A DNA stretch of 37,784 nucleotides from Advenella incenata (GTDB lineage: Bacteria > Pseudomonadota > Gammaproteobacteria > Burkholderiales > Burkholderiaceae_B), in assembly GCF_004217095.1 (NCBI RefSeq), contig NZ_SHKO01000007.1, positions 1-37,784 of the forward strand, in the 5' to 3' direction. Shown one piece after another: positions 7,288 to 23,666 of the stretch. The translations under genes were made by a program, and so were the position numbers. The first letter of the stretch is position 1; the number at the start of each line of letters is the position of its first letter. Below the pieces are notes generated by a model. The model searched no databases. It saw only the letters and a program-made list of their open reading frames with translations, and was not told the origin of the DNA.

Positions 7288-7641
7288 ATGCATGTTGATG
7301 AATTTATCAAAATGAATGCTTCGGAGAGGTCAGCTAAATATTCACAGCTCACGCCCTTTCGGGACGCCATTATCAAGCTCAAAAACGAGGGCTTTTCAGA
7401 ACGAAAAATTCTGGAATTCTTGGCGCTGAACGACGTAGTTGTTAATCAATCGACGTTGCACCGCTTTGTAAAAAGACATGCTGATAACGAGCCACAAAAA
7501 AAATCTGTAAATACAGTTGCTCGGCAACGGCAAGCACCAGGTGCTGAGTCCAAGAGAGAACCCCAAAAACCCATTGATCCAGCAAAGCCATCCTGGGTGC
7601 CGGATCATATCAACGTGGATGAACTCCTGAGTAAGACCTAA
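7288..7641 (+). CDS. traK: TraK-like oriT-binding accessory protein
   Basis: A 117-residue basic protein. The N-terminal 65 residues include FRDAIIKLKNEGFSERKILE and VNQSTLHRFVKRH, a helix-turn-helix-like layout similar in spacing to RP4 TraK and to IncW/IncN stb-type proteins. The C-terminus is Pro/Lys-rich (PIDPAKPSWVPDHI). ATG at 7288 is preferred over the upstream TTG because AGGG lies before it. It is the first gene after oriT, as traK is in RP4, and the traL- and traM-like genes follow after the 3-kb control region. The family call is moderate: similarity is in pattern and context more than in strong identity. Confidence 0.6.
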   Translation: MHVDEFIKMNASERSAKYSQLTPFRDAIIKLKNEGFSERKILEFLALNDVVVNQSTLHRFVKRHADNEPQKKSVNTVARQRQAPGAESKREPQKPIDPAKPSWVPDHINVDELLSKT

Positions 7642-7684
7642 TTTCCATATAGCGAGACTTTAGGTTAAATTAACTTTAAGGGTC

Positions 7685-7728
7685 GGCGGCAGTCTGTTTC
7701 AACGAGCAGCGCCGCCTTTGTTGTTTTT
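7685..7728 (+). terminator. Terminator after traK-like gene
   Basis: GGCGGC (7685-7690) pairs with GCCGCC (7711-7716) across a 20-nt loop, followed by TTTGTTGTTTTT. It lies 43 bp after the traK-like stop. The gap 7642-7952 otherwise holds only the palindromes at 7780. Confidence 0.7.
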
Positions 7729-7779
7729 ATCAGCCTATATTTCAAATGAAATAAAATGACAATTCATATTAATAGCCAG

Positions 7780-7799
7780 TCACGCGTGATAACGATCAC
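7780..7799. promoter_or_regulatory. Overlapping palindromes upstream of an HTH gene
   Basis: TCACGCGTGA (7780-7789) and GTGAT-AACG-ATCAC (7786-7799) are both perfect and overlap. They lie about 150 bp before the HTH gene at 7953, and could be operators for it or for a neighbouring regulator. No clear promoter can be fixed. Confidence 0.4.
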
Positions 7800-7952
7800 A
7801 ATTAAACACTTTTCATCTTACTTTCTGTAACATGTGGCTATTTACTGGCTCGGCTATGCGTTGCTCTCTTTATCAACCCCTGGAATATTTGCCTGTCTAC
7901 CATCCTTTACTGAGGTGTGAGGCGCTTTTTCCGCATTTTTCTGACCTTCCCT

Positions 7953-8318
7953 ATGGATAAATTTGAAATCCGTCGCCAGAAACTTCTAAAGCTTATTGAC
8001 GAGTATGCCTATGGCGTTAAATATAAATTCGCGCAAATGGTTGATTTGCATCCTGGAACGATTAGCCATCTGGTCGCAGAGCCAGGAACACCAGGTAAGC
8101 AATTAATTTCCGAGACTAAGATAGATCAGATAGAAGGGCGGCTGGATATACCAGGATGGTTTGATTTACCACCGGACCCGCAACAGGACCTTTGGCCTTT
8201 CAGGGCAATGACATTTCGCCAGTACTGTGAAATGGACGCTTTAGACAAAGATGAGATCGAGGCATTTTTAAAAATAAAACTCAAAAGTCATTTTAAAAAG
8301 CAAAAGAAAGTGCAATAA
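7953..8318 (+). CDS. Phage-repressor-like HTH (XRE/CI-type) protein
   Basis: A 121-residue protein. FAQMVDLHPGTISHLV forms a helix-turn-helix, followed by ETKIDQIEGRLDIPGWFDLP, the closing segment typical of phage CI-like N-terminal domains (a GWFD or GWMD ending). The C-terminal ~50 residues are short and charged, with no S24 peptidase domain. ATG 7953 gives MDKFEIRRQ; a GTG at 7917 is in frame but has its ribosome site touching the codon, so the start is uncertain. A terminator follows within 20 bp. It sits between the traK-like gene and the first structured element. A regulatory role is inferred; targets are unknown. Confidence 0.7.
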   Translation: MDKFEIRRQKLLKLIDEYAYGVKYKFAQMVDLHPGTISHLVAEPGTPGKQLISETKIDQIEGRLDIPGWFDLPPDPQQDLWPFRAMTFRQYCEMDALDKDEIEAFLKIKLKSHFKKQKKVQ

Positions 8319-8320
8319 AA

Positions 8321-8349
8321 GGCCGTTTTAAACGGTCTATATTTTTATT
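8321..8349 (+). terminator. Terminator after the 7953 HTH gene
   Basis: CCGTTT-T-AAACGG (8323-8335), extended by GG/TC pairs, then a TATATTTTTATT tract, 3 bp after the stop codon. Confidence 0.7.
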
Positions 8350-8383
8350 AATTATATTGAACTCATATTTTTTAAAAAAGATA

Positions 8384-8412
8384 TTGCAACAAATTACAGG
8401 GTACGATAGTAT
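8384..8412 (+). promoter_or_regulatory. Candidate promoter of structured element 1
   Basis: TTGCAA at 8384-8389, a 17-bp spacer, then TAGTAT at 8407-8412. A start near 8419 would place the boxA-like sequence at the 5' end of the transcript. The same TTGCAA -35 is found before structured element 2 (9582). Confidence 0.5.
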
Positions 8413-8418
8413 TTCTCA

Positions 8419-8806
8419 ATTAATAAGAACGCTCTTTAATCTGTTGCAGACATAATCACCTGTCGAGGTGATAAACCAGACCCTGGGACGGGTATATTTT
8501 GCGTTCCCAGCGATATGGAGAGGCGTCAGCCGGGGAGCCTTGAACAGAATCCCAGCAATCCTTCAAAGCAAGGGGGTTTGTACTAAAAGGAGGGAATAAC
8601 ATTAGTACGAATCAGGCACAACAGCGCAATACGATAGCGCACACGCAATGGTCGCGGCGAACGTGAATATTCGCGGTAAGACATTTGAATAAATGCTTTT
8701 GGCTTACAGAATCGACCTGACAGAACGGAATAGATACGTCAAAGCACTTGCCATCTGGGTGAGTGCGCTTTATTAAATGGCTTGGCATGTGATGGCCAGG
8801 CATTTT
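8419..8806 (+). ncRNA. Structured element/RNA, copy 1 (unrecognised family)
   Basis: No convincing gene lies in 8319-8840. The stretch opens with a boxA-like GCTCTTTAAT (8431-8440). It continues with a perfect hairpin TCACCT-GTCG-AGGTGA (8456-8471), a variable region including CTGGGA/TCCCAG and GTACTAA/TTAGTAC (8580-8586 with 8602-8608), then a 51-nt block (8624-8674) that is 49/51 identical to copy 2. Next come GTAAG/CTTAC around CATTT/AAATG, a second conserved block (8710-8741, 27/32), a hairpin GCACTTGCC/GGTGAGTGC (8744-8766, two G-U pairs) and GCGCTTT. It ends in GCTTGGC/GCCAGGC followed by ATTTT (8780-8805). Hairpins differ in sequence from copy 2 but keep pairing, which argues for selection on structure. 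I do not recognise the family. The ends are estimated. Confidence 0.7.
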
Positions 8807-8840
8807 AAAGAAGCGGAAAATTTACTGAATAGTTGAATAA

Positions 8841-9080
8841 TTATATAATCGGTTCAGTTCCGCGCAGATACGACCAATCGACGGTTGAGTTTAGGTTTTC
8901 ACATCGGATCCCTGTCAGTTTTTCTATTTCTGGGCAATGCTCAGGAGGGACTTCGCTTTGTTTCCATTGCCATATTGCGCTACTGGATACGTTCAGTAGA
9001 TCGGCCAATCTGGCTTGATTACCTACTACTTTTGCCGCAGCATTCAATGATTCTTCGATAAGAGGGTTTTTCTTTTTCAT
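8841..9080 (-). CDS. Cro/YdaS-like HTH protein
   Basis: A 79-residue protein resembling YdaS/Cro-type regulators: NQARLADLLNVSSSAIWQWK is the helix-turn-helix, and VPPEHCPEIEKLTG is the characteristic following segment of the YdaS_antitoxin/Cro group. ATG 9080 (MKKKNPL) is chosen over TTG 9089; neither has a strong ribosome site. It is divergent from the cI-like gene at 9193 across a palindromic operator region, and convergent with structured element 1. The arrangement mirrors a lambdoid cI/cro switch. Confidence 0.82.
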   Translation of the reverse strand: MKKKNPLIEESLNAAAKVVGNQARLADLLNVSSSAIWQWKQSEVPPEHCPEIEKLTGIRCENLNSTVDWSYLRGTEPII

Positions 9081-9138
9081 AAAGTTCAACTTGTTAAGAA
9101 TGCTATAAGTTTAGATTATCTGAATATTTATTTCAATA

Positions 9139-9187
9139 AAGTGTAAAGTATTTCTTGATACTAAAACTTTAGTATTTCTTTACACTT
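9139..9187. promoter_or_regulatory. Divergent operator region between cro-like and cI-like genes
   Basis: AGTGTAAAG (9140-9148) and CTTTACACT (9178-9186) form a perfect 9-bp outer inverted repeat. Inside lies the 18-bp palindrome ATACTAAA-AC-TTTAGTAT (9158-9175). The right half read on the minus strand, AAGTGTAAAGAAATACTAAA, matches 17/20 bases of 9635-9654 upstream of structured element 2, pointing to a shared regulator. Confidence 0.75.
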
Positions 9188-9192
9188 ACGAC

Positions 9193-9540
9193 ATGAAATT
9201 AAATGAATGGATCCGCTCTGCGCGTCACCATGCAGATATGAGCCAGGAGAAGCTAGGAGAGTACCTGGGGAAGTCCAAGGCAAACATCTCTATGTGGGAA
9301 TCTGGAGCTCATGAGCCGAGCTTTGCGCAACTATTAAAGATAATAGAAGTGACTGGCTATAGAGAACTTTTGCCTGGATTAAGTGCTGCCTTGGAAAAGG
9401 CACATTGGCCATTCCATGAACTCTCTTTGGATAAGGTTAAAAAGATCGATGACCGAGATCTTATCAAGCTAGAAACGGTCATTCAGATCTCTGCAAAACA
9501 GATCGGACTTGACGTTTCTAAGGACGAAAGCAATAAATAA
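9193..9540 (+). CDS. cI-like HTH (XRE family) repressor
   Basis: A 115-residue protein with an N-terminal XRE domain: WIRSARHHADMSQEKLGEYL followed by the recognition helix region GKSKANISMWESGAHEPSF. The C-terminal 50 residues are predicted helical and carry no S24 peptidase motif, so it is shorter than a classic CI. It is divergent from the cro-like gene, and the outer operator arm ends 7 bp before its ATG. No Shine-Dalgarno sequence is visible; translation may be leaderless or weak, as for lambda cI from its maintenance promoter. It probably binds the operators at 9139 and upstream of 9662. Confidence 0.82.
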   Translation: MKLNEWIRSARHHADMSQEKLGEYLGKSKANISMWESGAHEPSFAQLLKIIEVTGYRELLPGLSAALEKAHWPFHELSLDKVKKIDDRDLIKLETVIQISAKQIGLDVSKDESNK

Positions 9541-9555
9541 CCCTTTGTAAAAGTG

Positions 9556-9581
9556 CTACGGGCTTGCCCTGTAGTATTTTG
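9556..9581 (+). terminator. Terminator-like hairpin after the cI-like gene
   Basis: CTACGGG-CTTG-CCCTGTAG with one bulged T, then TATTTTG, 15 bp after the stop codon. It separates the cI-like transcript from the element 2 promoter. Confidence 0.55.
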
Positions 9582-9656
9582 TTGCAATAAAAGTTAAGAA
9601 AAACTAAATAATAAAGTCAGTTATGCTTTACTAAAAGTGTTAAGATAAACTAAACT
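9582..9656 (+). promoter_or_regulatory. Tandem promoter/operator region of structured element 2
   Basis: TTGCAA (9582) with TAAATA 17 bp on, and TTTACT (9627) with TAAACT (9651) 18 bp on, are two candidate promoters. They are overlaid by two similar repeats, AAGTTAAGAAAAACTAAA (9591-9608) and AAGTGTTAAGATAAACTAAA (9635-9654). The second matches the cro/cI operator in 17/20 positions and covers the -10, as expected for a repressor site. Confidence 0.6.
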
Positions 9657-9661
9657 AGAGT

Positions 9662-10021
9662 CAATGGTTAACGCCATTGGCTCTTTAACAATTTATCAAA
9701 TAGTCACATGTCGATGTGATTAGTCAGCCCGGCGGCAACTTTGCCCGACCGGCCTGTCCAGGTTCGCCAGGGGCCTGACTCGAAACCCTATTAGCTATCA
9801 GTAGATGGCGGCTTGAGATTAATAATCCAGCTGGCTAAAGGCGCAAGACGATGGCGCACACGCAATGGTCGCGGCGAACGTGAATATTCGCAGTTAGAAA
9901 TGATCGGATCCATCCGATGAAACTACGTAATCGACCTGACAGGCCGGAACAGGTACGGCAGATAAGCCACTTACCAAGTAAGTGCGCTTTGGTAAATGAC
10001 CTGGTTATGCCAGGTTTTTTT
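9662..10021 (+). ncRNA. Structured element/RNA, copy 2 (unrecognised family)
   Basis: No gene lies in 9541-10050. The element opens with a hairpin CAATGG-TTAACG-CCATTG (9662-9679) and then GGCTCTTTAACAATTTATCA, nearly the rrn-leader boxA context. Next are TCACAT-GTCG-ATGTGA (9704-9719), AGTCAG/CTGACT (9722-9727 with 9775-9780) and TTAGC/GCTAA (9791-9795 with 9834-9838). The 51-nt conserved block is 9841-9891. It is followed by ATCGGAT-CC-ATCCGAT enclosed by AGTT/AACT, a second conserved block (9929-9960), CACTTAC-CAA-GTAAGTG (9968-9984) and a strong terminator. Relative to copy 1, the 5' hairpin, the CCG/CGG stem in block 2 and the 3' hairpin change while keeping pairing. It heads the transfer block. 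Function is unknown; cis antitermination, a trans-acting RNA or a single-strand promoter are options. Confidence 0.72.
10000..10021 (+). terminator. Terminator at the 3' end of structured element 2
   Basis: CCTGG-TTATG-CCAGG followed by seven T residues (10015-10021), a clear intrinsic terminator 30 bp before the next gene. Transfer genes downstream would need read-through or their own promoter. Confidence 0.88.
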
Positions 10022-10050
10022 CTGAAGCGATATATTCATTATGGTGATCT

Positions 10051-10566
10051 ATGCAAGTATTAGCGGCTGAAAAATTCCTTCGTCCTTCATCTAAGCCCAT
10101 AAAAAAACCGCCGTTTTCTCTCCCTCGGAAACAGATTGATTGGGACGAGTACAGGCAATATGGCACAGTTAAATGGAAACCTCGAAAATTTGAATTGCAG
10201 TTTATCGGGGGTATACAGTTCGGTTTTGAACCATGGATGAGGGTAATAGGCTCATTTAACAATAACCTGGTATCGCTTCCTTCTGTTCTCGAAATAGACC
10301 CTTTTCTGGCACGTAATTTGAGAAAAGGAGTTGTTGTCTGGACTCCCAACAGAAGGGGAATAGGGAATGTTGATAGAACAGAGTGGGCGGCCTTGTGGCT
10401 ACGGATACGGGCGACAAATCATAAATCCATTCCCTGGGAAATCCATTTTGAAAGAGTGAATGAATGCAATTTTGACATTTTCCAGGCCAATGACAGCACT
10501 ACACGCCTTGAGCTGTACGTAGCCAAGGATCAGCGGGAAATCTATAGACATAAACGTTTCTGGTAA
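10051..10566 (+). CDS. Hypothetical protein, 171 aa, at the head of the transfer block
   Basis: Not recognised. The 171-residue product is rich in aromatic and basic residues (KPPFSLPRKQIDWDEY, GGIQFGFEPWMRVIGSF, TEWAALWLRIRATNHKSIPW). It has no signal peptide or membrane segment and looks like a mixed alpha/beta cytoplasmic protein. The start has only a weak ribosome site (GGTGA). It lies between the terminator of structured element 2 and a hairpin that precedes the traL-like gene. Position suggests a transfer-linked role, possibly tied to the structured element; this is inference. Confidence 0.65.
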   Translation: MQVLAAEKFLRPSSKPIKKPPFSLPRKQIDWDEYRQYGTVKWKPRKFELQFIGGIQFGFEPWMRVIGSFNNNLVSLPSVLEIDPFLARNLRKGVVVWTPNRRGIGNVDRTEWAALWLRIRATNHKSIPWEIHFERVNECNFDIFQANDSTTRLELYVAKDQREIYRHKRFW

Positions 10567-10571
10567 TGCGC

Positions 10572-10594
10572 ACCGGATAAATAGCCGGTTTTTT
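10572..10594 (+). terminator. Terminator-like hairpin before the traL-like gene
   Basis: ACCGG-ATAAATAG-CCGGT with a TTTTTT run, directly after the 171-aa gene and 17 bp before the traL-like start. Confidence 0.65.
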
Positions 10595-10610
10595 ATATCA
10601 AAGGATATAC

Positions 10611-11375
10611 ATGAAAACAGTACATTTCGTCTTGCAAGGCAAGGGTGGGGTAGGTAAGACATTTATTTCATCAATCGTTGCGCAATACCTTGGGCATGGT
10701 TCTGGCGCCCCTGTGCATTGCTTTGATACCGATCCCGTCAACAAAAGCTTTTCACAAATACAGGGACTGAACGTTCAAACAATCAATATCCTTACTGAAA
10801 ACAAGAAAATTGATGGTAGCCAGTTTGATCAATTGATAAATCAGTTAATTGAGCTGGACGGTCAGGGAGTTATTGATAATGGCGCGTCTTCATTTGTCCC
10901 GCTTATGGACTATCTTCAAGAGAACAACGTACCTACCTTTTTCAAGGACGCAGGCATCAATATGGTGATGCATGTTCCCATGCAGGGCGGTCAGGCCCTA
11001 AAAGATACGACATATGGCCTAAGCGTTGTCCTGGATGAGCTGAAATGCCCTGTTGTCGTCTGGCTTAATAATCATCATGGACAGATTGATAAAACGGTTG
11101 ATGCTTTCAAAGATCGCGCCATTTATAAAAAATACAAAAGCCAAATTCTTGGTGTAGTGGAGATTGCCGACCGCAGCCAGGATACTTTCGGTAAGGATAT
11201 CCGAAGCATGACAGAGCAGAATTTGACATTTGATGAGGTGGCTCAGTCAGAGAAATTTTTCATTATGAATAAGCAGCGGATTCAGATTTTCAAGCGCAGT
11301 ATTTACGAGCAGTTGGATGCTATTAATTTAGGAGAAAAAAATGATGTTCCTGCTGAAAAAGACAAGCAAGCATAA
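10611..11375 (+). CDS. traL: TraL/StbB-like ParA-superfamily ATPase
   Basis: A 254-residue P-loop ATPase of the ParA/MinD superfamily with GKGGVGKT (residues about 10-17) and a Walker A' aspartate in CFDTDPVN near residue 40. Conjugative plasmids carry such proteins as TraL (RP4) or StbB (IncW/IncN), where they influence plasmid position or transfer rather than acting as the main partition ATPase. The true partition ATPase here is ParA at the window ends, so this second copy is best read as TraL-like. AAAGG precedes the start. Its 3' end overlaps the trbM-like gene by 35 bp. Confidence 0.8.
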   Translation: MKTVHFVLQGKGGVGKTFISSIVAQYLGHGSGAPVHCFDTDPVNKSFSQIQGLNVQTINILTENKKIDGSQFDQLINQLIELDGQGVIDNGASSFVPLMDYLQENNVPTFFKDAGINMVMHVPMQGGQALKDTTYGLSVVLDELKCPVVVWLNNHHGQIDKTVDAFKDRAIYKKYKSQILGVVEIADRSQDTFGKDIRSMTEQNLTFDEVAQSEKFFIMNKQRIQIFKRSIYEQLDAINLGEKNDVPAEKDKQA

Positions 11376-11937
11376 ATTGCCTGCTCTGATGATCACGATA
11401 GCCGCCAGTTTGGCGGCTTTTTCATTTCCGGCCCACGCAGATCAAGAGCTGTCAGGTGATGAGAAAGATTCTTGCGGTGCATTACTGTGTTTAGCCAGCG
11501 GTGCCGGGCGCGGTGAAAGCGAATGCCAGGGCTATCTACGCCGCTATTTTTCGATCAAATTCACCCGCCCGGACAAAACTTTCGAAGCTCGGCGCGATTT
11601 TTTAAGCATATGTCCTACTGATAGTGATCCGGTATTTACGCAATACCATAAACCGGCGCTGATCAACGCCATTGCCAGGGGCGCGGGAAATTGCGACGCT
11701 AACTTTCTGAACAGCCTGAACAAAGCCTATTACGAGAAAAAAATCGTAGACAAGGGTTGGAGCAAATGGAACAACGATGATGATACGGTGCGCATCGAGC
11801 GGGTGGAGTATGTAAAAAATGAGCTACCCCCGTATTGCAAAGTGTATGAAGAAAACGAATACACGCAAGGCGTTGTACCAGTTTATGTCGGGGTAGAAAA
11901 AGAGGATGGGCATTTTGTCGATCCTCCACCGCAGTAA
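11341..11937 (+). CDS. trbM: TrbM-like conjugal transfer protein
   Basis: A 198-residue exported protein. After a signal peptide (LPALMITIAASLAAFSFPAHA) the mature part contains CGALLCLAS and ESECQGYLRRYFSI, the cysteine pattern of the TrbM family (a periplasmic protein of P-type conjugation systems with an incompletely known role). Further cysteines (SICPTD, AGNCDANF, PPYCKVY) suggest disulfides. AGGAG lies just before ATG 11341; ATG 11344 is also possible. The 35-bp overlap with the traL-like gene suggests translational coupling. A terminator follows. Confidence 0.82.
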   Translation: MMFLLKKTSKHKLPALMITIAASLAAFSFPAHADQELSGDEKDSCGALLCLASGAGRGESECQGYLRRYFSIKFTRPDKTFEARRDFLSICPTDSDPVFTQYHKPALINAIARGAGNCDANFLNSLNKAYYEKKIVDKGWSKWNNDDDTVRIERVEYVKNELPPYCKVYEENEYTQGVVPVYVGVEKEDGHFVDPPPQ

Positions 11938-11946
11938 TAGAAGGGT

Positions 11947-11977
11947 GGGCCGGTCCAGGTGACTGGCCCTTTTATTT
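11947..11977 (+). terminator. Terminator between trbM-like and traM-like genes
   Basis: GGGCCGGTC (11947-11955) pairs with GACTGGCCC (11961-11969, one G-U), followed by TTTTATTT. It ends 15 bp before the next start codon. Confidence 0.8.
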
Positions 11978-11991
11978 GAAGGAAACACAGT

Positions 11992-12405
11992 ATGCAGACC
12001 AGGACCGAAGAGCTGGTAAATGAGGTTTTTACCCAGACAAAACAAAAACTGTCTCCTGATGATCCCTTGCTTTCACTAATTCTGTTGCAAGAAAAAAGCT
12101 TGCAGCGGGCATTTGAGCAGCAAAACACAAGCCGGGCCGATCAGGATCAGGCATTTTTAGCGCAACTGGACGAACGCCTGGTAAAAATCAATGCGATGGC
12201 TGCCGACCTGGCGCAGTACCGGGAAAGAGTGATTGCGGAACTGTTGGCCAAGAATCAGCAGGTTGCGGTTCAGATTGAGGGCAGGGTAGTACGCAGGGCG
12301 TTGGGCGGTGTCAAGCGATTGCGGGTGGTGGCTGGTGCTGCCCTGGCGGTGGCCGTTCTTTGCCTAGTTGGGGTTGGGATGATGTATTTTCAGATTAGAG
12401 GATGA
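11992..12405 (+). CDS. traM: TraM-like conjugal transfer protein
   Basis: A 137-residue protein with a long central helical region (residues about 40-105, probable coiled coil) and one C-terminal membrane segment (VAGAALAVAVLCLVGVGMMY). The N-terminus (EELVNEVFTQTKQKLSPDDP) and the whole plan resemble RP4 TraM: DDP motif, coiled coil, C-terminal anchor. The order traK-traL-traM also matches RP4, with trbM interposed. GAAGGAAA precedes the start, and the stop is 4 bp before virB1. The exact role in conjugation is not established for this family. Confidence 0.65.
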   Translation: MQTRTEELVNEVFTQTKQKLSPDDPLLSLILLQEKSLQRAFEQQNTSRADQDQAFLAQLDERLVKINAMAADLAQYRERVIAELLAKNQQVAVQIEGRVVRRALGGVKRLRVVAGAALAVAVLCLVGVGMMYFQIRG

Positions 12406-12409
12406 GGAC

Positions 12410-13159
12410 ATGAAAGCATTCAAGGCCATGATTGTGGCTGTGTTGGCCGGGTTATGCGTATTACGCCCTGCGCTGGCTGTACAGAAGCAGGCCATACAAA
12501 CACCGGCAGAGCTGACATTTAACCAGCTGGCGGCTAGGTGTGCGCCTACGGTGCATGCCAGTACCTTGCAGGCGCTGGCCCGCACAGAGAGCAATTTCAA
12601 TCCCTACGCGATTGGGGTTGTCGGTGGCTCGGTAGCACAGCCAAAGACCCTGGAAGATGCCATTGCAACGGTCAAGACGCTGCATAAGGCGGGGAAGAAT
12701 TTCAGTATGGGCCTGGCGCAGATCAATAAATACAATCTGCCTAAATTTGGACTTTCCTATGAAACGGTGTTTGATCCATGTCAGAACCTGCAAACCGGGG
12801 CGCAGATCCTTGAGGACTGCTTTAACCGGGCTGGATCTGCTGATGGCCAGGTCGCGCTGCAAAAAGCCCTGTCTTGCTATTACAGCGGCAATTTCAGGAC
12901 TGGTTTTAGGCAGGATTTCAAGGGCCAGCCGCCCTATGTGAAACGGATCCAGCTGGCGGCAGCGCGAAACAGTGAGGAGCAAAAATTGCGGATCCCCGCG
13001 ATAAATGCCACGGCTCCCTTACAGGGGCCGGTTAAGGCCACGGTTAAGAATAAACCGACTGCCAAAGACAATCGGAACCCAGATACGGGTCGGACCGTGG
13101 CGACACAGGCAGCTGAAAAGCGCGAGACTGCCAGCTGGGATGCTTTCGGGGATTGGTAA
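12410..13159 (+). CDS. virB1: VirB1-like lytic transglycosylase
   Basis: A 249-residue periplasmic muramidase that opens peptidoglycan for assembly of the secretion channel. Signal peptide KAMIVAVLAGLCVLRPALA. The SLT/VirB1 domain shows the catalytic glutamate in ALARTESNFNPYAIG (near residue 60), then SMGLAQINKYNL and ALSCYYSGNF, all hallmark motifs. A Lys/Pro-rich C-terminal tail (about residues 190-249) follows. The start is 4 bp after the traM-like stop, with GAGGAC as ribosome site. It is the first gene of the canonical virB order. Confidence 0.93.
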   Translation: MKAFKAMIVAVLAGLCVLRPALAVQKQAIQTPAELTFNQLAARCAPTVHASTLQALARTESNFNPYAIGVVGGSVAQPKTLEDAIATVKTLHKAGKNFSMGLAQINKYNLPKFGLSYETVFDPCQNLQTGAQILEDCFNRAGSADGQVALQKALSCYYSGNFRTGFRQDFKGQPPYVKRIQLAAARNSEEQKLRIPAINATAPLQGPVKATVKNKPTAKDNRNPDTGRTVATQAAEKRETASWDAFGDW

Positions 13160-13176
13160 GAGCTAATTAATTATTT

Positions 13177-13188
13177 AACTATATAGTT
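13177..13188. promoter_or_regulatory. 12-bp palindrome between virB1 and virB2
   Basis: AACTATATAGTT is a perfect palindrome in the 162-bp virB1-virB2 gap. An orphan AAGGAGGG (13196-13203) follows with no open frame behind it. It may be an operator; no protein partner can be named. Confidence 0.35.
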
Positions 13189-13265
13189 GAATACAAGGAG
13201 GGCAATCATACAGAGAGATATGGCATAGCAGGCTTGTAAACATTTCGAGTTCTTTTTAGTACCAG

Positions 13266-13288
13266 ACACCCAATCGGGTGTTTTTTTT
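13266..13288 (+). terminator. Terminator before virB2
   Basis: ACACCC-AATC-GGGTGT followed by eight T residues, ending 33 bp before the virB2 start. Strong intrinsic terminator inside the virB gene series. Confidence 0.85.
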
Positions 13289-13321
13289 CGTTCTTAATAT
13301 TTGATTTTTCAAGGAAAAACA

Positions 13322-13642
13322 ATGAAACGTGTCTCTAGTAAGTTAGTTCGCACTGTGGCTGATTCTCTAATGATGGTCACCCTTGTGATGGTTTCTCAGG
13401 CGGCGATGGCCCAGGGCTTTGCCGCGCCGGTTATCGATGTTGTCACGCAGATCCAAGATGGTATTTACGCCTTGGTGGGCGTCCTGGCAATTATTGGTCT
13501 GTTATGGCAGCTGTATGAAGGTTCGCAAGGTCAAAAGACGTGGCCCGATATTGGTAAAACGTGCCTTTGGATCGTTGCCGCGGCTGCCGTAGTGGCTATC
13601 GGTAACTGGCTCTGGGCAACCGGCGCGTCAATTTCGTTCTAA
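13322..13642 (+). CDS. virB2: VirB2-like pilin subunit
   Basis: A 106-residue pro-pilin that forms the conjugative pilus. A long signal sequence ends near AMAQ (about residue 30). The mature part has two hydrophobic helices, QDGIYALVGVLAIIGLLWQL and CLWIVAAAAVVAIGNWLW, joined by a short polar loop, the standard VirB2 hairpin. ATG 13322 is chosen because AAGGAAAA precedes it; an upstream in-frame codon lacks a ribosome site. It lies 16 bp before virB3 and behind a strong terminator, so it may be transcribed at higher or separate levels. Confidence 0.92.
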   Translation: MKRVSSKLVRTVADSLMMVTLVMVSQAAMAQGFAAPVIDVVTQIQDGIYALVGVLAIIGLLWQLYEGSQGQKTWPDIGKTCLWIVAAAAVVAIGNWLWATGASISF

Positions 13643-13658
13643 TTAATAAGGAACGGCA

Positions 13659-14096
13659 ATGCGCAACTCCAATGAAACCAAGATATTGGATGAAAAATTC
13701 CCAACCTTCAATGCATTGGGTCGTTCAGCGTTGGTGCTTGGCATTCCACTGATGCCTTTGGTGCTTCTAGTGGGATTGTCCTTGGTCGTGACAATGGCTT
13801 TGCTGATATTTATACATGGGAAGGCGCTGCTATTTCTGCTGATCCCCTTGCCAGTCATTGTCTTTATGAAAACTGTCTCACGTAACGATGACCAGGCATT
13901 AAAGGTCATCGGATACGAGCTAATGAGCTGGTTCTATCGGCGCAATGCGGCATTTTTCAATGGCACCACGACCATTCTAGCCACTCAATTCGGGAGAAAT
14001 TTACATGATTATCAGCGATTTTTTGAGCAAGGCGCTCAAAAAACAAGCCTCGGGTTCGACCTTCCTGCCGAAGGTATCCCAACATATAACCGCTAA
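13659..14096 (+). CDS. virB3: VirB3-like inner-membrane protein with a C-terminal extension
   Basis: A 145-residue T4SS inner-membrane protein. Two adjacent hydrophobic segments (LVLGIPLMPLVLLVGLSLVV and LLIFIHGKALLFLLIPLPVI) occupy residues about 25-68, followed by the conserved VSRNDDQALKVIG-type segment. VirB3 proteins are usually nearer 90-110 residues; here the frame stays open 92 bp into virB4, adding about 30 residues. It starts 16 bp after virB2 with AAGGAA. The extension may be real or simply an uninterrupted overlap. Confidence 0.88.
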   Translation: MRNSNETKILDEKFPTFNALGRSALVLGIPLMPLVLLVGLSLVVTMALLIFIHGKALLFLLIPLPVIVFMKTVSRNDDQALKVIGYELMSWFYRRNAAFFNGTTTILATQFGRNLHDYQRFFEQGAQKTSLGFDLPAEGIPTYNR

Positions 14097-16419
14097 TCTG
14101 ATTCATTTCAAGACGGGCCATATCGGGTTTGTGATCCGGTTAGAAGGCTTGCCCTTTGAAAGTGAGGACGATTCACACCTTAAAAACCACTTCACACAGT
14201 TGGCGCACCAACTCGCTAGCGCAGGTAAAACGCTGGGCAATCGTTTGGCCTTTTGGACTACGCTACGGCGTCGAAAAAAGGAGTTCGACCGTCAATATGC
14301 CTTTGACAACCTGTTTTGCCATGAATTTGCTGAGAAGTACCTGCAAAAATTTCAGACAGGTGATTACTACGAGAATGTCTTTTATCTGACGGGCCTGATC
14401 AAATATGAGGAGTTTGACGAAGGGATTAAAGAGGCTAATGATCTGATTTCTGTGCTGATGCTGGGGCTGGATGTTTATGATCCGGTAGTTTTGACGGCGT
14501 GGCAGAATACAGAAGGAGTGTTGTTTTCAGAGGTGTTTACCTTCTTTGGCTCACTGATAAATGGAGTTGAAGAGGACATTCCCCTGTCTAACGTGGATGC
14601 TTACCAGACGCTTGCCAGCGCGGATCTGCACTTTGGTGCTGATGTGTGCGAGATTCGGGGCCAGAGCGGGACGCGCTATGCGGTGTGCTTCGATTTGAAA
14701 GATTTTGGCGTGTCGCAGGTCAAGGTACTGCACCGGGTATTAGATCTGCCGTGTGAGTTCACTTTTACGCAATCCTTTGTGTACGTTGATTCCCCGTCGA
14801 TGCAGCACACCATCAATAAACAACTCAATAACCTGGTGTCGGTAGGAGATCATGCTGTTGATCAGCAGGACGAGCTCAATGCTGGTCTGGGTAAGCTGAC
14901 CTCTGGCGAGCTAATGTTCGGGGAATATCACAGCGCCTTGGTGGTTTATGGATCAACGGCTCGGTTGGCCTCCCAGAATGGAGCCAGGGTGTATACCCGG
15001 TTCTTGAATTCGGGTGGCTACCGGTTTATCAAGGCTGGCTTATCGGCACCTATAACGTTCTTTAGCCAGGTGCCTGGTGCCAAGCACAAGCCCCGATCTT
15101 TCCCAAAATCGACCGTTAATCTGGCGACAACCTTCGGGATGCATAACTATTCCCACGGAAAAAGCCAGGGTAATCCGATCGGGGACGGTTCGGCGGTCAT
15201 GCCGATGCAGACCGTTTCCAACACGATCTATGATTTTAATTATCATTTTTCTAACCCAAAAGAGGACAACACCGGCGACAAAATTGCCGGTCACACCTTG
15301 ATTTTGGGTGCAACGGGTACGGGTAAAACGACTTTGGAAACCGCACAGTTGGCTTTTGCGGATCGGTTTAACCCTTACCTTTTTGTGCTGGATTTGGATG
15401 AGGGTATGAAAATCTTTATCCGGGCCACGGGCGGTGCCTACTATTCCCTGAAAGATGGGGAGTCAACAGGCTGCAACCCGTTCCAGTTGCCAGATAGTCC
15501 TAAAACTCGCGAGTTTCTATACAAGCTGGTGGGGATCTGCGGTAAGAATGCTGCCGGGTCATTGACAGCTGCCGAAGAAAAGCAGATCCAGGTAGCGGTC
15601 GATACGTTGATGAACACCATTGACTTTAAAAACCGCAATTTCAGTGTACTTTTGCAAAGCATTCCCCCAGAACCCTTGAAATCCGACAATCTAAGAGGTC
15701 GTCTGTCTCGATGGTGTCGTAGTGAAAACGGGCGCTATGCCTGGTGTCTGGATAATCCTACGAACCATTTTGACCCGGATGATTTTTTCCGGATTGGCTT
15801 TGATCTGACTGATATTCTCAAGGATGACTACCTGCCGACAGAGCCGGTTTTGGCTTACTTGTTCTTTCTACGCTCTTTGATGATGGATCGAGTGGCCGCT
15901 TCTGGCGGCATTCTGGCCACGGTTATTGAGGAGTTCTGGTACCCGGCCCGGTTTGAGGTGACGCAGGACTTTATGCTCAAAATCCTGAAAACCGACCGCA
16001 AGCTTGGTGGTTGGGTGATTTTGACCAGTCAAAGCCCGGAAGATGCCATTAATAGCCCTATTTTTGCGGCAATAGTGCAGCAGACCCCAACCAAGATCTT
16101 TTTGCCTAACCCTGATGCTGAGTTTGAGGGCAGTTATGCTCGATGCGGCATCACATACAAGGAGTATGAGGAACTGGTGAAATTGACCTTGGAGAGCCGT
16201 ACTTTTCTGATTCGCCAGTCCCGCCAGTCTGCGTTTGCTACGTTGAATCTATACGGGTTTGAGGATGAAATGGCGGTGTTATCTGGTTCTGCCGATAACG
16301 TGGCCATCCTGGATGAGGTCATGGTCGAGCAGGGTGATGTGCCAGTCGATGTTTGGTATCCGGCCTTTAAGGAGCGGGTACGCGAAGCGCGGCAGGCAAA
16401 AAGGAAAAAGGCAGCATAG
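14005..16419 (+). CDS. virB4: VirB4-like T4SS ATPase
   Basis: An 804-residue AAA+ ATPase of the CagE/TrbE/VirB family, the largest energiser of the secretion channel, at the inner membrane. Walker A GATGTGKTT lies at about residues 435-443 and the Walker B region ATVIEEFWYP near 640, followed by LTSQSPEDAINSPIF, a conserved sensor stretch. GGGAGAAA sits 8 bp before ATG 14005, supporting this start even though it lies within the virB3 frame. Length is normal for the family. Confidence 0.96.
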   Translation: MIISDFLSKALKKQASGSTFLPKVSQHITANLIHFKTGHIGFVIRLEGLPFESEDDSHLKNHFTQLAHQLASAGKTLGNRLAFWTTLRRRKKEFDRQYAFDNLFCHEFAEKYLQKFQTGDYYENVFYLTGLIKYEEFDEGIKEANDLISVLMLGLDVYDPVVLTAWQNTEGVLFSEVFTFFGSLINGVEEDIPLSNVDAYQTLASADLHFGADVCEIRGQSGTRYAVCFDLKDFGVSQVKVLHRVLDLPCEFTFTQSFVYVDSPSMQHTINKQLNNLVSVGDHAVDQQDELNAGLGKLTSGELMFGEYHSALVVYGSTARLASQNGARVYTRFLNSGGYRFIKAGLSAPITFFSQVPGAKHKPRSFPKSTVNLATTFGMHNYSHGKSQGNPIGDGSAVMPMQTVSNTIYDFNYHFSNPKEDNTGDKIAGHTLILGATGTGKTTLETAQLAFADRFNPYLFVLDLDEGMKIFIRATGGAYYSLKDGESTGCNPFQLPDSPKTREFLYKLVGICGKNAAGSLTAAEEKQIQVAVDTLMNTIDFKNRNFSVLLQSIPPEPLKSDNLRGRLSRWCRSENGRYAWCLDNPTNHFDPDDFFRIGFDLTDILKDDYLPTEPVLAYLFFLRSLMMDRVAASGGILATVIEEFWYPARFEVTQDFMLKILKTDRKLGGWVILTSQSPEDAINSPIFAAIVQQTPTKIFLPNPDAEFEGSYARCGITYKEYEELVKLTLESRTFLIRQSRQSAFATLNLYGFEDEMAVLSGSADNVAILDEVMVEQGDVPVDVWYPAFKERVREARQAKRKKAA

Positions 16420-16447
16420 GTAATGAAAATCGTTATGTTCATGTAAT

Positions 16448-16505
16448 ACCCGTCCTGGTTGATGCGCAAGGGCAGGGCGGGTGTTGTAAATGCAGTACAT
16501 GTACT
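16448..16505. other. Stem-loop and 12-bp palindrome between virB4 and virB5
   Basis: ACCCG-T-CCTG (16448-16457) pairs with CAGG-G-CGGGT (16473-16482). It lacks a T run, so it is not a typical terminator. AGTACATGTACT (16494-16505) is a perfect palindrome 18 bp before the virB5 ribosome site. RNA processing or regulator binding are possible. Confidence 0.4.
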
Positions 16506-16536
16506 TCTCTTATATTATTTTCTAGGAAATCCAAAA

Positions 16537-17178
16537 ATGAAAACCCTTAAATATATGAAGCGGGCCGCATTGATTGCGGCCTTTTCTTTGTCCGGCTCAG
16601 CCTTTGCGGCGGGGATCCCGACCATCGACGCGGCGGCTCTGGCTCAAATGGCTGAGCAAATAACGCACATGAAAACACAGATTGAAAATCAGATATCACA
16701 GATTACGGAGCTGAAAAATCAAGTCAAGGCGGTAACGGGTACGCGTAATATGGGCAATTTACTCAAAGACCAGGTGAAAGACGTAATCCCCTCTGAATGG
16801 GCGGATATTTATAAAGCAGCCAATGTGGATGTGTCCAGCATTACGGATCTCAAAACCTTCGATCCGCAAGCCGGTTTAAAGAATCTGGCCTCAATTCAGG
16901 AGTTTTCAGAACGCGCTTTTAAGGACACAAAAGCGAGGCTGGGTAACATTGAGGGCCTAATGGCACAGATTGATATGACGCAGGATATGAAGGGCGCAGC
17001 TGATTTACAGAACCGCATTGCCACGGAGAATGCAGCTATCGTGAATACTCAAGTCAAGATGGATATGATGGCGCGACTGTACGAGAACCAGAAGGAAATT
17101 AACTATCGTCAACGTGTCCAACATTCCAATTGCAGAATGCAAGCTTGGGCCAATCGTTCGGATGGCAGTTGCGAATAA
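16537..17178 (+). CDS. virB5: VirB5-like minor pilus protein
   Basis: A 213-residue exported protein. Signal peptide MKRAALIAAFSLSGSAFAAG, then a helical mature region starting with IPTIDAAALAQMAEQITHM and IENQISQITELKNQVKAVTG, the recognisable VirB5/TrbJ opening. These proteins cap or nucleate the pilus and contact recipients. ATG 16537 is set by AGGAAA; a longer upstream reading lacks a signal-peptide logic. It follows virB4 by 117 bp containing a stem-loop and palindrome. Confidence 0.9.
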   Translation: MKTLKYMKRAALIAAFSLSGSAFAAGIPTIDAAALAQMAEQITHMKTQIENQISQITELKNQVKAVTGTRNMGNLLKDQVKDVIPSEWADIYKAANVDVSSITDLKTFDPQAGLKNLASIQEFSERAFKDTKARLGNIEGLMAQIDMTQDMKGAADLQNRIATENAAIVNTQVKMDMMARLYENQKEINYRQRVQHSNCRMQAWANRSDGSCE

Positions 17179-17213
17179 ATCAAGAATGCTGCATTCTTAC
17201 GGCTGAGAAGCGT

Positions 17214-17246
17214 TGACCAGGTGCAATTTTATCTGGTCACTTTTTT
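17214..17246 (+). terminator. Terminator between virB5 and the lipoprotein gene
   Basis: TGACCAG (17214-17220) pairs with CTGGTCA (17233-17239), followed by CTTTTTT. A second perfect hairpin, AAGAATG-CTG-CATTCTT, lies at 17182-17198 directly after virB5. Confidence 0.8.
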
Positions 17247-17271
17247 ATTTCATCTGATAAAGGATTATGAC

Positions 17272-17622
17272 ATGCGTGTTTTATTAATTGCTGGGTTGAT
17301 CGGTTTGAGTGCCGTTGTTGCTGGTTGTGGAGAGAAAGCAGAGGCCCAAAAATCACAGTCTAGTGATGTTCAAAAAACACCATCGCCTGCAGAAGCGCTG
17401 CCTGAGGGTACGTCTGCTCCTGATCAAAATGAATATCGTAAGAAAAAACAACTAACCTCATGCAAAATGTTTGCAAGACATGACGGTAAGAACGATCCGT
17501 TCTATGCCCTAAAGTGCAAGCAGGATTTGGGGCAGGAAGTGTGTGAGCAGCATTACTCTAAAGAGGCATGTTCCGCTACCGATGAGGACATTGCAAAATC
17601 GAAAAAGTCCAAAAATGAATAG
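17272..17622 (+). CDS. Small lipoprotein in the entry-exclusion position
   Basis: A 116-residue lipoprotein: signal MRVLLIAGLIGLSAVVAGC with the lipobox AVVAGC (cysteine at residue 19). It is followed by a Ser/Gln/Pro-rich linker and a charged C-terminus with four further cysteines (SCKMF, LKCKQ, EVCEQ, EACSA). Lipoproteins encoded between virB5 and virB6 (IncN and IncW eex) or after trbJ (IncP trbK) mediate entry exclusion, so that role is likely by position; no eex-specific motif is clear. ATG 17272 follows AAAGGA. It sits behind a terminator, 22 bp before virB6. Confidence 0.75.
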   Translation: MRVLLIAGLIGLSAVVAGCGEKAEAQKSQSSDVQKTPSPAEALPEGTSAPDQNEYRKKKQLTSCKMFARHDGKNDPFYALKCKQDLGQEVCEQHYSKEACSATDEDIAKSKKSKNE

Positions 17623-17644
17623 GGCGTTTATATAAAGGAATGCT

Positions 17645-18574
17645 ATGAGCATTATTTCTGAACTGACGGACATATTTACGTCCAAACTTGGTACAGATCT
17701 ATTTTCCAAAACGGGGGATTTCATAACTGGGATTGCCCCTATTTTTTCGGCTGGACTAAGCCTCTACTTGCTCCTGCTTGTCTTTTATTACTACAACAGG
17801 GGGTTAGATGACGCAATTCTGGATATCTTTAAAAGGGTTATTGTCTGGCTGATTATTATTGCCTTTGCATTTAATGCTGGAACATATACAAAACTTGCTA
17901 GTTTTATTTATGCGCTACCAGATGATCTAAGTAGTTTATTTGGAGGAGAGCAAACAACAGCAAGTGCAGTAGAGACCGGCGTACAAAACGTTGATAAGAT
18001 GGTCGCTAATATTGGTTTGATTTCTGAAGACGCTAATTGGTATGAATGGGATGTTCATTTGCCGGTATTTGGTGGTCAGGTAGGTGCATATTTAATGGGC
18101 TATTGGCTTCTTCTATTAGCCTTTGCCTATTATTTGATTACAAAAGTATGTCTTGCCTTGACGTTAATGGTTGGCCCGCTGTTTCTCGGCGCTGCCTTGT
18201 TTCCAGGAACACGTCAGTTTGCGATGAACTGGATAGGACAATGTTTGAACTATACGGTGACAATTGTTCTTTTTGCCATTATCAGTAAAATGCAAAGCGA
18301 ATTTGTTGCTACGCATGTAAGCAATTGGGCAGGCGATAATTCAACGTGGGACATTGTAAAGCTATGGGACATTATGACGCAGTTGATTGCCATGACAATT
18401 CTGTTTACTTTGGTGTCATTAAGCGTTCCTAGTATTGCTGCTGCTTTGACTGGTGGTGCACAGGCCGATTCACATGGCAGGACAGTTAGCCGCTTTGTTG
18501 GTGGAATGCGACGTATGACAGGCACTATGAATTTTGGCCGTCCAGGTAAAGCTAATCGAGCAGGTAAAAATTAA
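17645..18574 (+). CDS. virB6: VirB6-like polytopic inner-membrane protein
   Basis: A 309-residue channel component with several transmembrane segments (GIAPIFSAGLSLYLLLLVFY, VIVWLIIIAFAFNAG, GYWLLLLAFAYYLITKVCLA, LTLMVGPLFLGAALF, QLIAMTILFTLVSLSVPSIA). The ALTLMVGPLFLGAALFPGTR stretch with its conserved tryptophan region is typical of TrbL/VirB6. The Gly/Arg-rich C-terminus is cytoplasmic. AAAGGAA precedes the start. The gene looks more AT-rich than virB4 or virB8-11, like its two neighbours, hinting at a separate history for 17.2-19.0 kb. Confidence 0.92.
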   Translation: MSIISELTDIFTSKLGTDLFSKTGDFITGIAPIFSAGLSLYLLLLVFYYYNRGLDDAILDIFKRVIVWLIIIAFAFNAGTYTKLASFIYALPDDLSSLFGGEQTTASAVETGVQNVDKMVANIGLISEDANWYEWDVHLPVFGGQVGAYLMGYWLLLLAFAYYLITKVCLALTLMVGPLFLGAALFPGTRQFAMNWIGQCLNYTVTIVLFAIISKMQSEFVATHVSNWAGDNSTWDIVKLWDIMTQLIAMTILFTLVSLSVPSIAAALTGGAQADSHGRTVSRFVGGMRRMTGTMNFGRPGKANRAGKN

Positions 18575-18586
18575 GGAGAATGCGAG

Positions 18587-18976
18587 ATGAATAAAAAGCT
18601 GGAATCAACAATGCGCAGAGCCGTTATTAGTGAACGGGCGCAACGAGGCATGTCCTGGCTATTGTTTATTGAAATACTTTGGTTGGCGGGAACACTTGGT
18701 CTAGTTGCCTATAAATTTCTCAATATTGGAAATTGGGCATGGCTGGTAGGGGGGTTGGCCTACTTTGGTTTTTTATGGCTGCGCCGTTATTCACTATTTT
18801 GCAAAGTGATGAGCATTATCTTCACCGTGTATTGGGTTTTCGGCTTTACCGCATTAAGTTATTCATCGTACGGGATCTCTGCAATGACTATTGGTGTCGC
18901 TGTTGTGAGCCTCATATTCATAGGTGGGATTCATTGGCGGGGCCTTCAAGAAATGGATGATTTATATGCCAGATAG
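18587..18976 (+). CDS. Small polytopic membrane protein, unknown
   Basis: A 129-residue protein with four probable membrane helices (WLLFIEILWLAGTLGLVAY, WAWLVGGLAYFGFLWL, VMSIIFTVYWVFGFTAL, ISAMTIGVAVVSLIFIGG) and a basic N-terminus (MNKKLESTMRRAVISERAQR). Not recognised. It is 12 bp after virB6 with AAGGAGAA as ribosome site, so it is co-translated with virB6. Position behind the putative exclusion lipoprotein and virB6 suggests an accessory channel or inner-membrane exclusion role; this is inference. Confidence 0.75.
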   Translation: MNKKLESTMRRAVISERAQRGMSWLLFIEILWLAGTLGLVAYKFLNIGNWAWLVGGLAYFGFLWLRRYSLFCKVMSIIFTVYWVFGFTALSYSSYGISAMTIGVAVVSLIFIGGIHWRGLQEMDDLYAR

Positions 18977-18988
18977 GCGATATATCGC
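18977..18988. promoter_or_regulatory. 12-bp palindrome after the membrane gene
   Basis: GCGATATATCGC is a perfect palindrome starting immediately after the TAG of the membrane gene, 26 bp before the terminator. It may be part of the transcript end or a protein site. Confidence 0.35.
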
Positions 18989-19014
18989 AAGTATATAAAC
19001 TAGGAAATACAGAT

Positions 19015-19044
19015 AACCACATTAATTCAAATGTGGTTTTTTTT
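19015..19044 (+). terminator. Strong terminator before virB7
   Basis: AACCACATT (19015-19023) pairs with AATGTGGTT (19030-19038) and runs into TTTTTTTT. It lies 60 bp before the virB7 start. Confidence 0.9.
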
Positions 19045-19103
19045 CGTCTGATGATTTTGAATTTGTTCTTACAAAAACGATTCACTCATAGGAGTTTGAG
19101 TAA

Positions 19104-19247
19104 ATGAAAAAGCTATTTTTAAGTGCGCTGATGTTGGTGTCCCTGGCAGCTTGCGCCAGCCATACACCGGCACCAGAGCCAAAGGGAACGCCCTTTCCGA
19201 TTAATCAGGGCTATGAAATAAAAGGGGAGTTTCGTCATGTTCTTTAA
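19104..19247 (+). CDS. virB7: VirB7-like small lipoprotein
   Basis: A 47-residue lipoprotein. MKKLFLSALMLVSLAAC has a clean lipobox LAAC with the cysteine at residue 17; the mature part is ASHTPAPEPKGTPFPINQGY and a short tail. VirB7 proteins anchor VirB9 at the outer membrane and form the core-complex ring. It lies directly before virB8 and overlaps its start by 11 bp. TAGGAG precedes the ATG. Identification rests on lipobox, length and position; sequence conservation is low in this family. Confidence 0.85.
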   Translation: MKKLFLSALMLVSLAACASHTPAPEPKGTPFPINQGYEIKGEFRHVL

Positions 19248-19953: not shown

Positions 19954-19969
19954 GGGCGAGGGGAAAACT

Positions 19970-20794: not shown

Positions 20795-20804
20795 GGAAAA
20801 TGTG

Positions 20805-22028: not shown

Positions 22029-22037
22029 GGGATAGGC

Positions 22038-23144: not shown

Positions 23145-23208
23145 TTCACATTGTCGTATTTGCAAAACACGTGCTGTACTATATTTCTAAATATTTTGTG
23201 GAAGTGTT

Positions 23209-23625
23209 ATGTCAATTATTCACGGTAGCTGCCTCTGCGGTGGCATTCAATATGAAGTCTCAGGGCCATTGGAAGGGGCATTAAATTGTCATTGTAAAAT
23301 GTGCCGCAAAGCGCATGGGGCTGCTTTTCGTAGTCGTGCTCGGGTAAATTCTGCTGATTTTAAAATCACTCAAGGGGACAATTTACTTAAATTTTACGAG
23401 TCGTCGCCCGGTAATCATCGAGGATTTTGCAGCGAATGTGGAACGCCAATCTTAAGTCGATTCGACAATGACTCGACTTGCTACGGCTTGCCTTTAGGGG
23501 CTTTAGATGACGATCCCGGACTAAAACCGCAACTTCATGTTTATGTCGCTCATAAGGCACCTTGGCACGACATAACCGATCGTCTCCCGCAATACGATAA
23601 GGAAATTACTACAAATACAGAGTAA
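23209..23625 (+). CDS. GFA/CENP-V-family zinc-binding protein (cargo gene)
   Basis: A 138-residue protein of the Gfa (glutathione-dependent formaldehyde-activating-like) family. All zinc cysteine groups are present: SCLCGGIQYEV (residues 7-17), NCHCKMCRKAHG (about 27-38) and FCSECGTPIL (about 74-83). Family members include S-hydroxymethylglutathione synthase and carbon-sulfur lyases, but most have no proven substrate. It sits between virB11 and ssb, flanked by a leader of 64 bp and a GAATATTC box plus terminator, so it looks like an inserted independent unit. A transfer role is not expected. Confidence 0.9.
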   Translation: MSIIHGSCLCGGIQYEVSGPLEGALNCHCKMCRKAHGAAFRSRARVNSADFKITQGDNLLKFYESSPGNHRGFCSECGTPILSRFDNDSTCYGLPLGALDDDPGLKPQLHVYVAHKAPWHDITDRLPQYDKEITTNTE

Positions 23626-23627
23626 AA

Positions 23628-23650: not shown

Positions 23651-23666
23651 TAAGTAATCAATAGAA

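Follow-up and report, generated by a model that had tools for sequence, protein, structure and literature searches.

The 37,784-nt contig C7 of a 4.9-Mb Advenella-group genome, analysed here at its full length and referred to as the window, carries on its + strand two copies of a structured element, copy 1 at 8413-8814 and copy 2 at 9658-10028, the latter heading a transfer (tra) operon of about 22 kb. Judged from their sequences, the copies, which were delimited by repeats and by the models R1, R2 and R3, belong to a real family of structured RNAs whose diverged members carry compensatory changes; no Rfam entry covers the window copies, and the family was previously uncatalogued. The element is probably a cis-acting, boxA-loaded RNA processive antiterminator whose action resembles that of HK022 put, Tn916 canT or conAn. 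It would represent a leader RNA that is not translated and that starts at a repressor-controlled promoter of its own, boxA would serve as the entry point for Nus factors, and the intrinsic terminators between the tra genes would be passable only for polymerases that had begun at the leader promoter, so that spurious transcripts would be cut off and the induced promoter would express the whole operon. For this mechanism, we infer transcription, repressor control, Nus binding, antitermination and an action of the RNA body in cis on the polymerase.

Structure and covariation of the predicted leader RNA

Two diverged copies of a large structured element had originally been predicted at about 8419-8806 and 9662-10021; the region was correct, and the ends were corrected to the limits given above. 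The two shared blocks on which that prediction was based were reproduced exactly (8624-8674 and 9841-9891, 49/51 identical; 8710-8741 and 9929-9960, 27/32 identical), and a repeat search lengthened the shared blocks to 61, 37 and 27 nt (92%, 81% and 81% identity, respectively), with an offset of 1217-1219 nt between the copies. The hairpins it had quoted were present at their positions, including the change from TCACCT/AGGTGA to TCACAT/ATGTGA around an unchanged GTCG loop. Both copies have an rrn-type boxA and 350-400 nt of untranslated structure in addition to a promoter-like sequence, and the hairpin at their end, GCTTT...GAAGC, is constant. In copy 1, a promoter-like sequence identified by eye (TTGCAA - 17 nt - TAGTAT, 8384-8412, with its -10 at 8407-8412) is followed by a weak 5' hairpin, boxA GCTCTTTAA (8431-8439), hairpin P1 with loop GTCG (8456-8471), hairpin Hb (GCGAA-CGTGAATA-TTCGC, 8657-8674), the 3' hairpin He (8744-8766) and the terminal hairpin Hf (GCTTT...GAAGC, 8767-8814). 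In copy 2, the promoter-like sequence (TTTACT - 18 nt - TAAACT, 9627-9656, -10 at 9651-9656, also by eye) precedes a 5' palindrome, GAGTCAATGG-TTAACG-CCATTGGCTC (9658-9683), that overlaps boxA GCTCTTTAACA (9680-9690); P1, again with loop GTCG (9703-9720), Hb with the same sequence as in copy 1 (9874-9891), Hd (GCCG-GAACAGGTA-CGGC, 9943-9959), He (CACTTAC/GTAAGTG, 9968-9984) and Hf (9986-10028) follow. The inner stem of this Hf, together with a T tract (9998-10021), doubles as an intrinsic-terminator-like site.

The motif GCTCTTTAA occurs on the + strand of the window at 8431 and 9680 only. The original prediction, whose account of the structure stood, had overlooked it at both places. As at rrn and lambda-type sites, boxA lies shortly after the start predicted by eye in both copies; the two motifs are candidate NusB/NusE binding sites, and the host rrn leader, with which they were compared, has TGTTCTTTAACAA. 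No match to any of 4227 Rfam families reached the gathering threshold in the window, in line with the earlier failure to recognise the family. A permissive search gave three window matches far below threshold, the best being BSnc120 with 23.6 bits vs 114. Sub-threshold matches of BSnc120 and Ysr197 overlie the boxA of copy 2, and the sequence beneath them, GCUCUUUAACAAUUUAUCA, is presumably the boxA region of enterobacterial rRNA leaders.

The proposal that selection acts on the structure through compensatory changes gained strong support from covariation once relatives were added. In a nine-sequence alignment of the 3' domain, 93.2% of the cells paired vs 77.5 ± 1.8% in shuffles, and both sides had changed at 13 of 29 pairs vs 8.2 ± 1.5. 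The covariation score was 0.419, compared with 0.166 ± 0.022 after shuffling; sliding the partners lowered pairing to 27-49% and the score to 0.111 or less. G-U pairs occurred among the varying pairs. Hairpin He was represented by 12 different arm pairs, which matched at 75/76 positions with their own arms and at 501/790 with swapped arms; because the arms had been picked from folds, own-arm pairing arises by construction, and the weight lies on the swapped-arm control and the nine-sequence alignment. Fold energies (25 shuffles each) lay at least two standard deviations below those of shuffles in 17 of 21 RNAs, with z of -5.5 for copy 2 and a modest -2.2 for copy 1, whose downstream flank was stronger at -3.4.

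Distribution and genomic position of the family

To place the element among related genomes, copy 2 was compared by blast with its own genome and 60 relatives. As a result, 4 of the 61 matched: its own; that of Advenella kashmirensis plasmid pWTk445 (NC_017965; conjugative, MOBP, MPF_T), the nearest named relative of contig C7; A. mandrilli, on two contigs; and a more diverged Advenella-genus contig (L004). Model R1 (6 sequences) matched 7/200 family genomes, R2 (9 sequences) matched 14/200 genomes in 9/43 genera, and covariance model R3, built from 14 sequences over 88 positions at the 3' end, found 31 places in 24/268 Alcaligenaceae genomes and 12/43 genera. Outside Alcaligenaceae, no member was found in order samples (R1 2/300 and R3 2/394 genomes, all matches being family members) or in a class sample (R2 1/369, its own genome), in searches that ran with stricter filters and lose weak matches. 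Among 13 sources searched with R3, the only matches were in the window and pWTk445; a 20-kb stretch of the host chromosome and ten further plasmid stretches gave none. Identity searches with both window copies returned pWTk445 as the one plasmid record, with copy 2 no E. coli genome, and with the Oligella leader and two prophage leaders no phage record. A DNA pattern found 27 stretches in genome contigs and 2 in viral contigs, of which R1 confirmed 5/29 and gave a weak match in one more (L040, E 0.15), away from the pattern site; the others were taken as chance. A further pattern search of viral contigs gave 8 stretches, with one site per whole record. A single 36-nt match in Citrobacter was dropped, being confirmed by neither R2 nor R3.

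The arrangement of the intact plasmid-type loci is constant: a regulator-like open reading frame (ORF), a promoter-like sequence, the 5' hairpin, boxA and P1 are followed by a variable body, hairpins Hd and He and the terminal Hf. The P1 loop is GTCG in the Advenella copies, and Hf reads GCTTT...GAAGC or ends in AAAGC, differing in G009 and G089. A sense boxA lies near the 5' end in 21 delimited leaders, among which the prophage-type starts were set at boxA. Beyond the model rows, a boxA-like motif occurred within 560 nt upstream in 7/15 R3 places vs 1/30 control windows; one of the seven, L126, has the same body as L099, which is in the model. Places with no exact 60-mer body match to an earlier locus had the motif in 4/7 cases, and their controls in 0/14. 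The prophage leaders, compared by eye, show several body types with a common boxA and a common He-Hf end. One prophage operon (L095:9950-10250) contains two terminal hairpin modules, each immediately preceding the start of an ORF. The Rfam Proteo-phage-1 RNA was found slightly downstream of the leader at two prophage-type loci (L085:7664-7741, L090:6544-6617), and the RT-15 RNA on two leader-bearing loci of this type (L098:6070-6252, L085:1156-1344).

The relatives stand at the heads of tra operons, toxin-antitoxin or Fic genes and prophage early operons. Genes for TraL and its neighbours lie behind the RNA in the window, pWTk445, both A. mandrilli copies, L004/L057, Oligella C2 and G089, with a phosphoribosyltransferase-like gene intervening in Oligella C2. 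Nucleotidyltransferase-, Fic- or zeta-like genes, named by eye, follow it in Pelistega, in an Alcaligenaceae metagenome-assembled genome and behind truncated copies, and phage-like early genes, also by eye, in G064, G068, G102, G166, G205 and viral contigs. The gene directly 3' of the RNA varies even among tra operons. An ATG follows the last hairpin by 8-52 nt in 19/21 delimited leaders of all types.

This ATG, the promoter-like start, the sense boxA and the varying G-U pairs favour RNA over single-stranded DNA, both of which had been left open by the original prediction of a functional molecule. A folded single-stranded DNA element active in conjugation, as a promoter or an origin, would fit a plasmid with transfer genes and a palindrome in copy 2 that spans the predicted start site; the family also occupies prophage-like and toxin-antitoxin loci, and this explanation is very improbable. 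Somewhat less remote, and still improbable, is a stand-alone noncoding RNA that acts in trans and whose place before operons is incidental. At 350-400 nt the copies are large and highly structured; neither copy 1 nor its counterpart in pWTk445 has an ATG in the 100 nt downstream, and both are opposed by a convergent gene; and at some solitary R3 places (e.g. L131, L135, L136, L140) no gene evidently starts behind the hairpin, as judged by eye. Against this stand the 19/21 leaders that reach up to an ATG and a 3' end formed by a hairpin that mostly lacks a U tract.

Terminator-like sites in the transfer operons

Contig C7 was taken for a plasmid because it codes for a RepA-family initiator, a umuC-like polymerase, a relaxase of MobA/VirD2 type, a coupling protein and VirB-type type IV secretion system (T4SS) proteins. 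No tRNA was found in the window. The tra operon on the + strand begins behind copy 2 with a 171-aa ORF without a Pfam family (10051-10566) and continues with a ParA/ArsA-family ATPase whose homologues are annotated TraL (10611-11375), with TrbM, SLT and VirB-type T4SS genes (11419-23144; the TrbM start was chosen by hand, its ORF opening at 11341), and with genes for a coupling protein, a PriCT-2/LPD7 protein, an SNase, an ArdC-like protein and the relaxase (24174-32166). Terminator-like sites on the + strand lie between orf171 and TraL (10572-10594), at the TraL/TrbM junction (11400-11422), between TrbM and orf137 (11947-11973), between SLT and VirB2 (13264-13288), at the VirB4/VirB5 (16562-16585) and VirB5/orf133 (17214-17246) junctions, between the GFA-domain ORF and orf145 (23665-23690) and before the ArdC-like gene (29407-29437); an AT-richer one between orf129 and VirB8 (19015-19044) fails the stricter scan described below. 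Six of nine sites in the window stand 18-23 nt before the next start, with the VirB5 start (16600, in an ORF that opens at 16459) and that of TrbM set by hand.

A generic scan of both strands found 33 terminator-like sites in 7500-20500 vs 13.6 ± 3.6 in shuffles, and 17 vs 18.7 ± 3.8 in 20500-37784; the excess therefore lies in the first half. A second, stricter scan required a stem of 5 bp or more with 4 G-C and no more than one G-T, a loop of 3-9 and a T tract; it gave sense/antisense counts of 9/4 for the window, 13/3 for pWTk445 and 10/2 and 9/5 for A. mandrilli, that is, 41 sense vs 14 antisense sites in 89.5 kb (0.46/kb sense) of four RNA-led operons. By comparison, seven hand-picked transfer regions of six plasmids without the RNA, three of them richer in G+C, had 7 sense vs 12 antisense sites in 85.1 kb (0.08/kb sense): R46 3/3, Mixta 2/3, Moraxella 1/0, pALIDE02 0/3, Xanthomonas 0/1 and 1/1, and IncX4 0/1. 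The sense rates differed with a binomial P of 7e-7, which became 7e-5 when each related pair was represented by a single operon; against the four control regions with G+C of 0.40-0.50 (6/7, 53.9 kb), P was 1.6e-4 and 0.002, respectively. The kfr-klc region of pALIDE02 (3 sense, 1 antisense) was excluded from the control counts, not being a transfer operon, and two NusG-led operons were counted apart. A host ORF run around nuoH contained no sense terminator-like site.

In the window and both A. mandrilli operons, mapping by tblastn placed sites recurrently at TraL/TrbM, SLT/VirB2, VirB4/VirB5 and before ArdC, at 27-65% protein identity and with differing hairpin sequences. The hairpins before TrbM, for instance, are AGCCGCCAGTTTGGCGGCT in the window, TGCTGCCGGTGGCGGCA and AATGCTGCCATTGGCGGCATT on A. 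mandrilli C5 and C1, and TGCTGCCAGTGGCAGCA in Oligella. Extrapolated site-to-start distances in A. mandrilli vary widely.

These sites bear on a further explanation, namely that boxA protects the leader by keeping Rho off while the body is a conventional cis-regulator of the first gene, through attenuation or translation control; an example would be a switch between the mutually exclusive pairings AAGC:GCTTT and GCTTT:GAAGC of He and Hf. In the window copies and those of A. mandrilli, the GCTTT strand can indeed pair with the sequence before or after it (by eye), the ATG lies close to the last hairpin in most leaders, and Hf modules stand in tandem before two starts in L095. This explanation is possible, if rather unlikely; it leaves unexplained both the terminator-like sites throughout about 22 kb of operon and the sharing of one leader by unrelated first genes.

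Several observations weigh against processive antitermination. Its weakest points are the terminator-free prophage operons and the small number of independent tra operons. The combination of a leader at the operon head and terminator-like sites within the operon was found in four tra operons, which form only two related pairs, and not in the prophage stretches examined: behind the prophage leaders, 6/7 stretches of 4-6 kb each had no sense site, and one had two. Part of the terminator contrast with the controls is due to G+C, and 10/42 mapped sites of the four operons fall within an aligned gene. The promoter and terminator calls are pattern matches with start sites predicted by eye; a generic promoter scan listed neither named promoter, that of copy 1 being below threshold, and found fewer promoter-like sites in 7500-20500 than shuffles did (12 vs 20.5). 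Fold z reached -2 in 9/41 flanking windows and failed to do so in 4/21 RNAs. Eight of 15 R3 places, truncated or solitary 3' modules among them, have no boxA-like motif upstream, and several of these 15 are not independent of earlier loci; L093 and L130 have the 3' body and no such motif upstream. Truncated copies stand before single nucleotidyltransferase genes, and in copy 2 of pWTk445 (L012:12300-12345) the last hairpin is without the inner stem and T tract that it has in the window. Because boxA/Nus complexes mainly counter Rho, it must be the RNA body that lets polymerase pass intrinsic terminators. Directly behind copy 1 there is no sense gene, and the 3' end of a convergent cro-like gene follows.

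This convergent Cro/YdaS-like gene (8841-9089, - strand; PF15943 and PF14549) is succeeded by a CI-like helix-turn-helix (HTH) gene (9193-9540, + strand; PF01381), which lies upstream of copy 2 and has the direction of copy 1. The lambda establishment promoter combines a transcript antisense to cro with cI expression, and we would guess at a similar role for copy 1. Directly upstream of copy 1, a 133-aa ORF (7917-8318, + strand, possible ATG at 7953) matches no Pfam family and was read as a CI-like regulator by position and by eye; in seven other plasmid-type loci, a same-strand ORF in the slot before the leader likewise looks HTH-like by eye. A 16-nt motif, TATTGCAACAAATTAC, at 8382-8397 overlaps the copy 1 promoter and recurs inverted at 9574-9589 just behind cI; the pair is 94% complementary and possibly a shared operator.

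Comparison with known systems

Among the matches listed, in a search that left subscription papers and preprints mostly uncovered, no publication was found that describes the element by its title or the start of its abstract. In the rrn leader, with its boxB-boxA layout, boxA comes just after the promoter and behind a hairpin. The element shares this order, whereas it heads operons of mobile elements and has a large additional structured body. The Rfam family RF02917 (Burkholderiales-2) matched within one prophage leader body type, on the antisense strand (L091:8670-8745, L097:6908-6984, L098:2275-2350); unlike the element, it lies on the opposite strand and is absent from the window and the other 14 of 17 loci searched, and its model may represent the reverse strand, or the family may belong to a larger RNA. 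The CUP elements of IncN plasmids, which are conserved repeats upstream of genes with ArdK sites and a promoter close to the gene, were set aside as relatives: the R46 repeats are GC-rich up to a gene-proximal promoter-like end, the five intergenic stretches read in R46 hold one TCTTTAA match, and R3 found no match in R46.

The sources consulted mention only a small number of RNA-based processive antiterminators by name, namely put, EAR, canT and the RNA part of conAn. boxA control beyond rRNA is described as widespread, a toxin-antitoxin system included (PMC5725501). HK022 putL and putR resemble the element as RNA antiterminators at early promoters in two copies per genome; put is about 70 nt long, has two stem-loops and uses no dedicated protein factor (PMC9378689). 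The Advenella copies, with 350-400 nt and a boxA in front, are set apart from it by size and by architecture as described there.

Two further systems are Gram-positive. Conjugation operons of the pLS20 type contain multiple intrinsic terminators and begin with the conAn system, whose antitermination has an RNA part (PMC8955417); conAn differs in its protein component, ConAn1, and the first genes behind the element differ between loci, ConAn1 not having been searched for. The canT of Tn916 (PMC11658703) also provides processive antitermination of a conjugation operon and is active in a 452-bp fragment; it belongs to an integrative and conjugative element and was tested experimentally, whereas the likeness of our element, known from sequence alone, is one of description. 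On the Gram-negative side, two plasmids that likewise bear TraL-like and VirB genes, pHelA and the P8W plasmid of P. aeruginosa, have a divergent regulator gene, then a gene annotated as a NusG-family antiterminator, then T4SS genes (NusG-family genes directly before T4SS genes at L108:11141-11653 and L109:17260-17766 of two Pseudomonas plasmids). Such NusG-led operons are not terminator-rich (2/6 and 2/0, in total 4 sense and 6 antisense), another point to be set against antitermination by the RNA; the analogy is therefore positional only, the operon head being a place for antitermination factors.

If correct, antitermination by a boxA-coupled RNA family common to plasmids and prophages would show how long Gram-negative transfer operons stay silent yet fully expressible, with predictions testable in 12 genera, and would add a much larger nascent-RNA modifier of polymerase, which may join Nus factors with a folded RNA body. 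We see about an even chance that the element founds a new family of RNA processive antiterminators loaded through boxA, which would recur as a module at the start of Alcaligenaceae operons for conjugation, for toxin-antitoxin systems and for early prophage genes, and that it is a Gram-negative, RNA-based counterpart of conAn and canT in the slot that a NusG-family gene occupies in related Pseudomonas plasmids.

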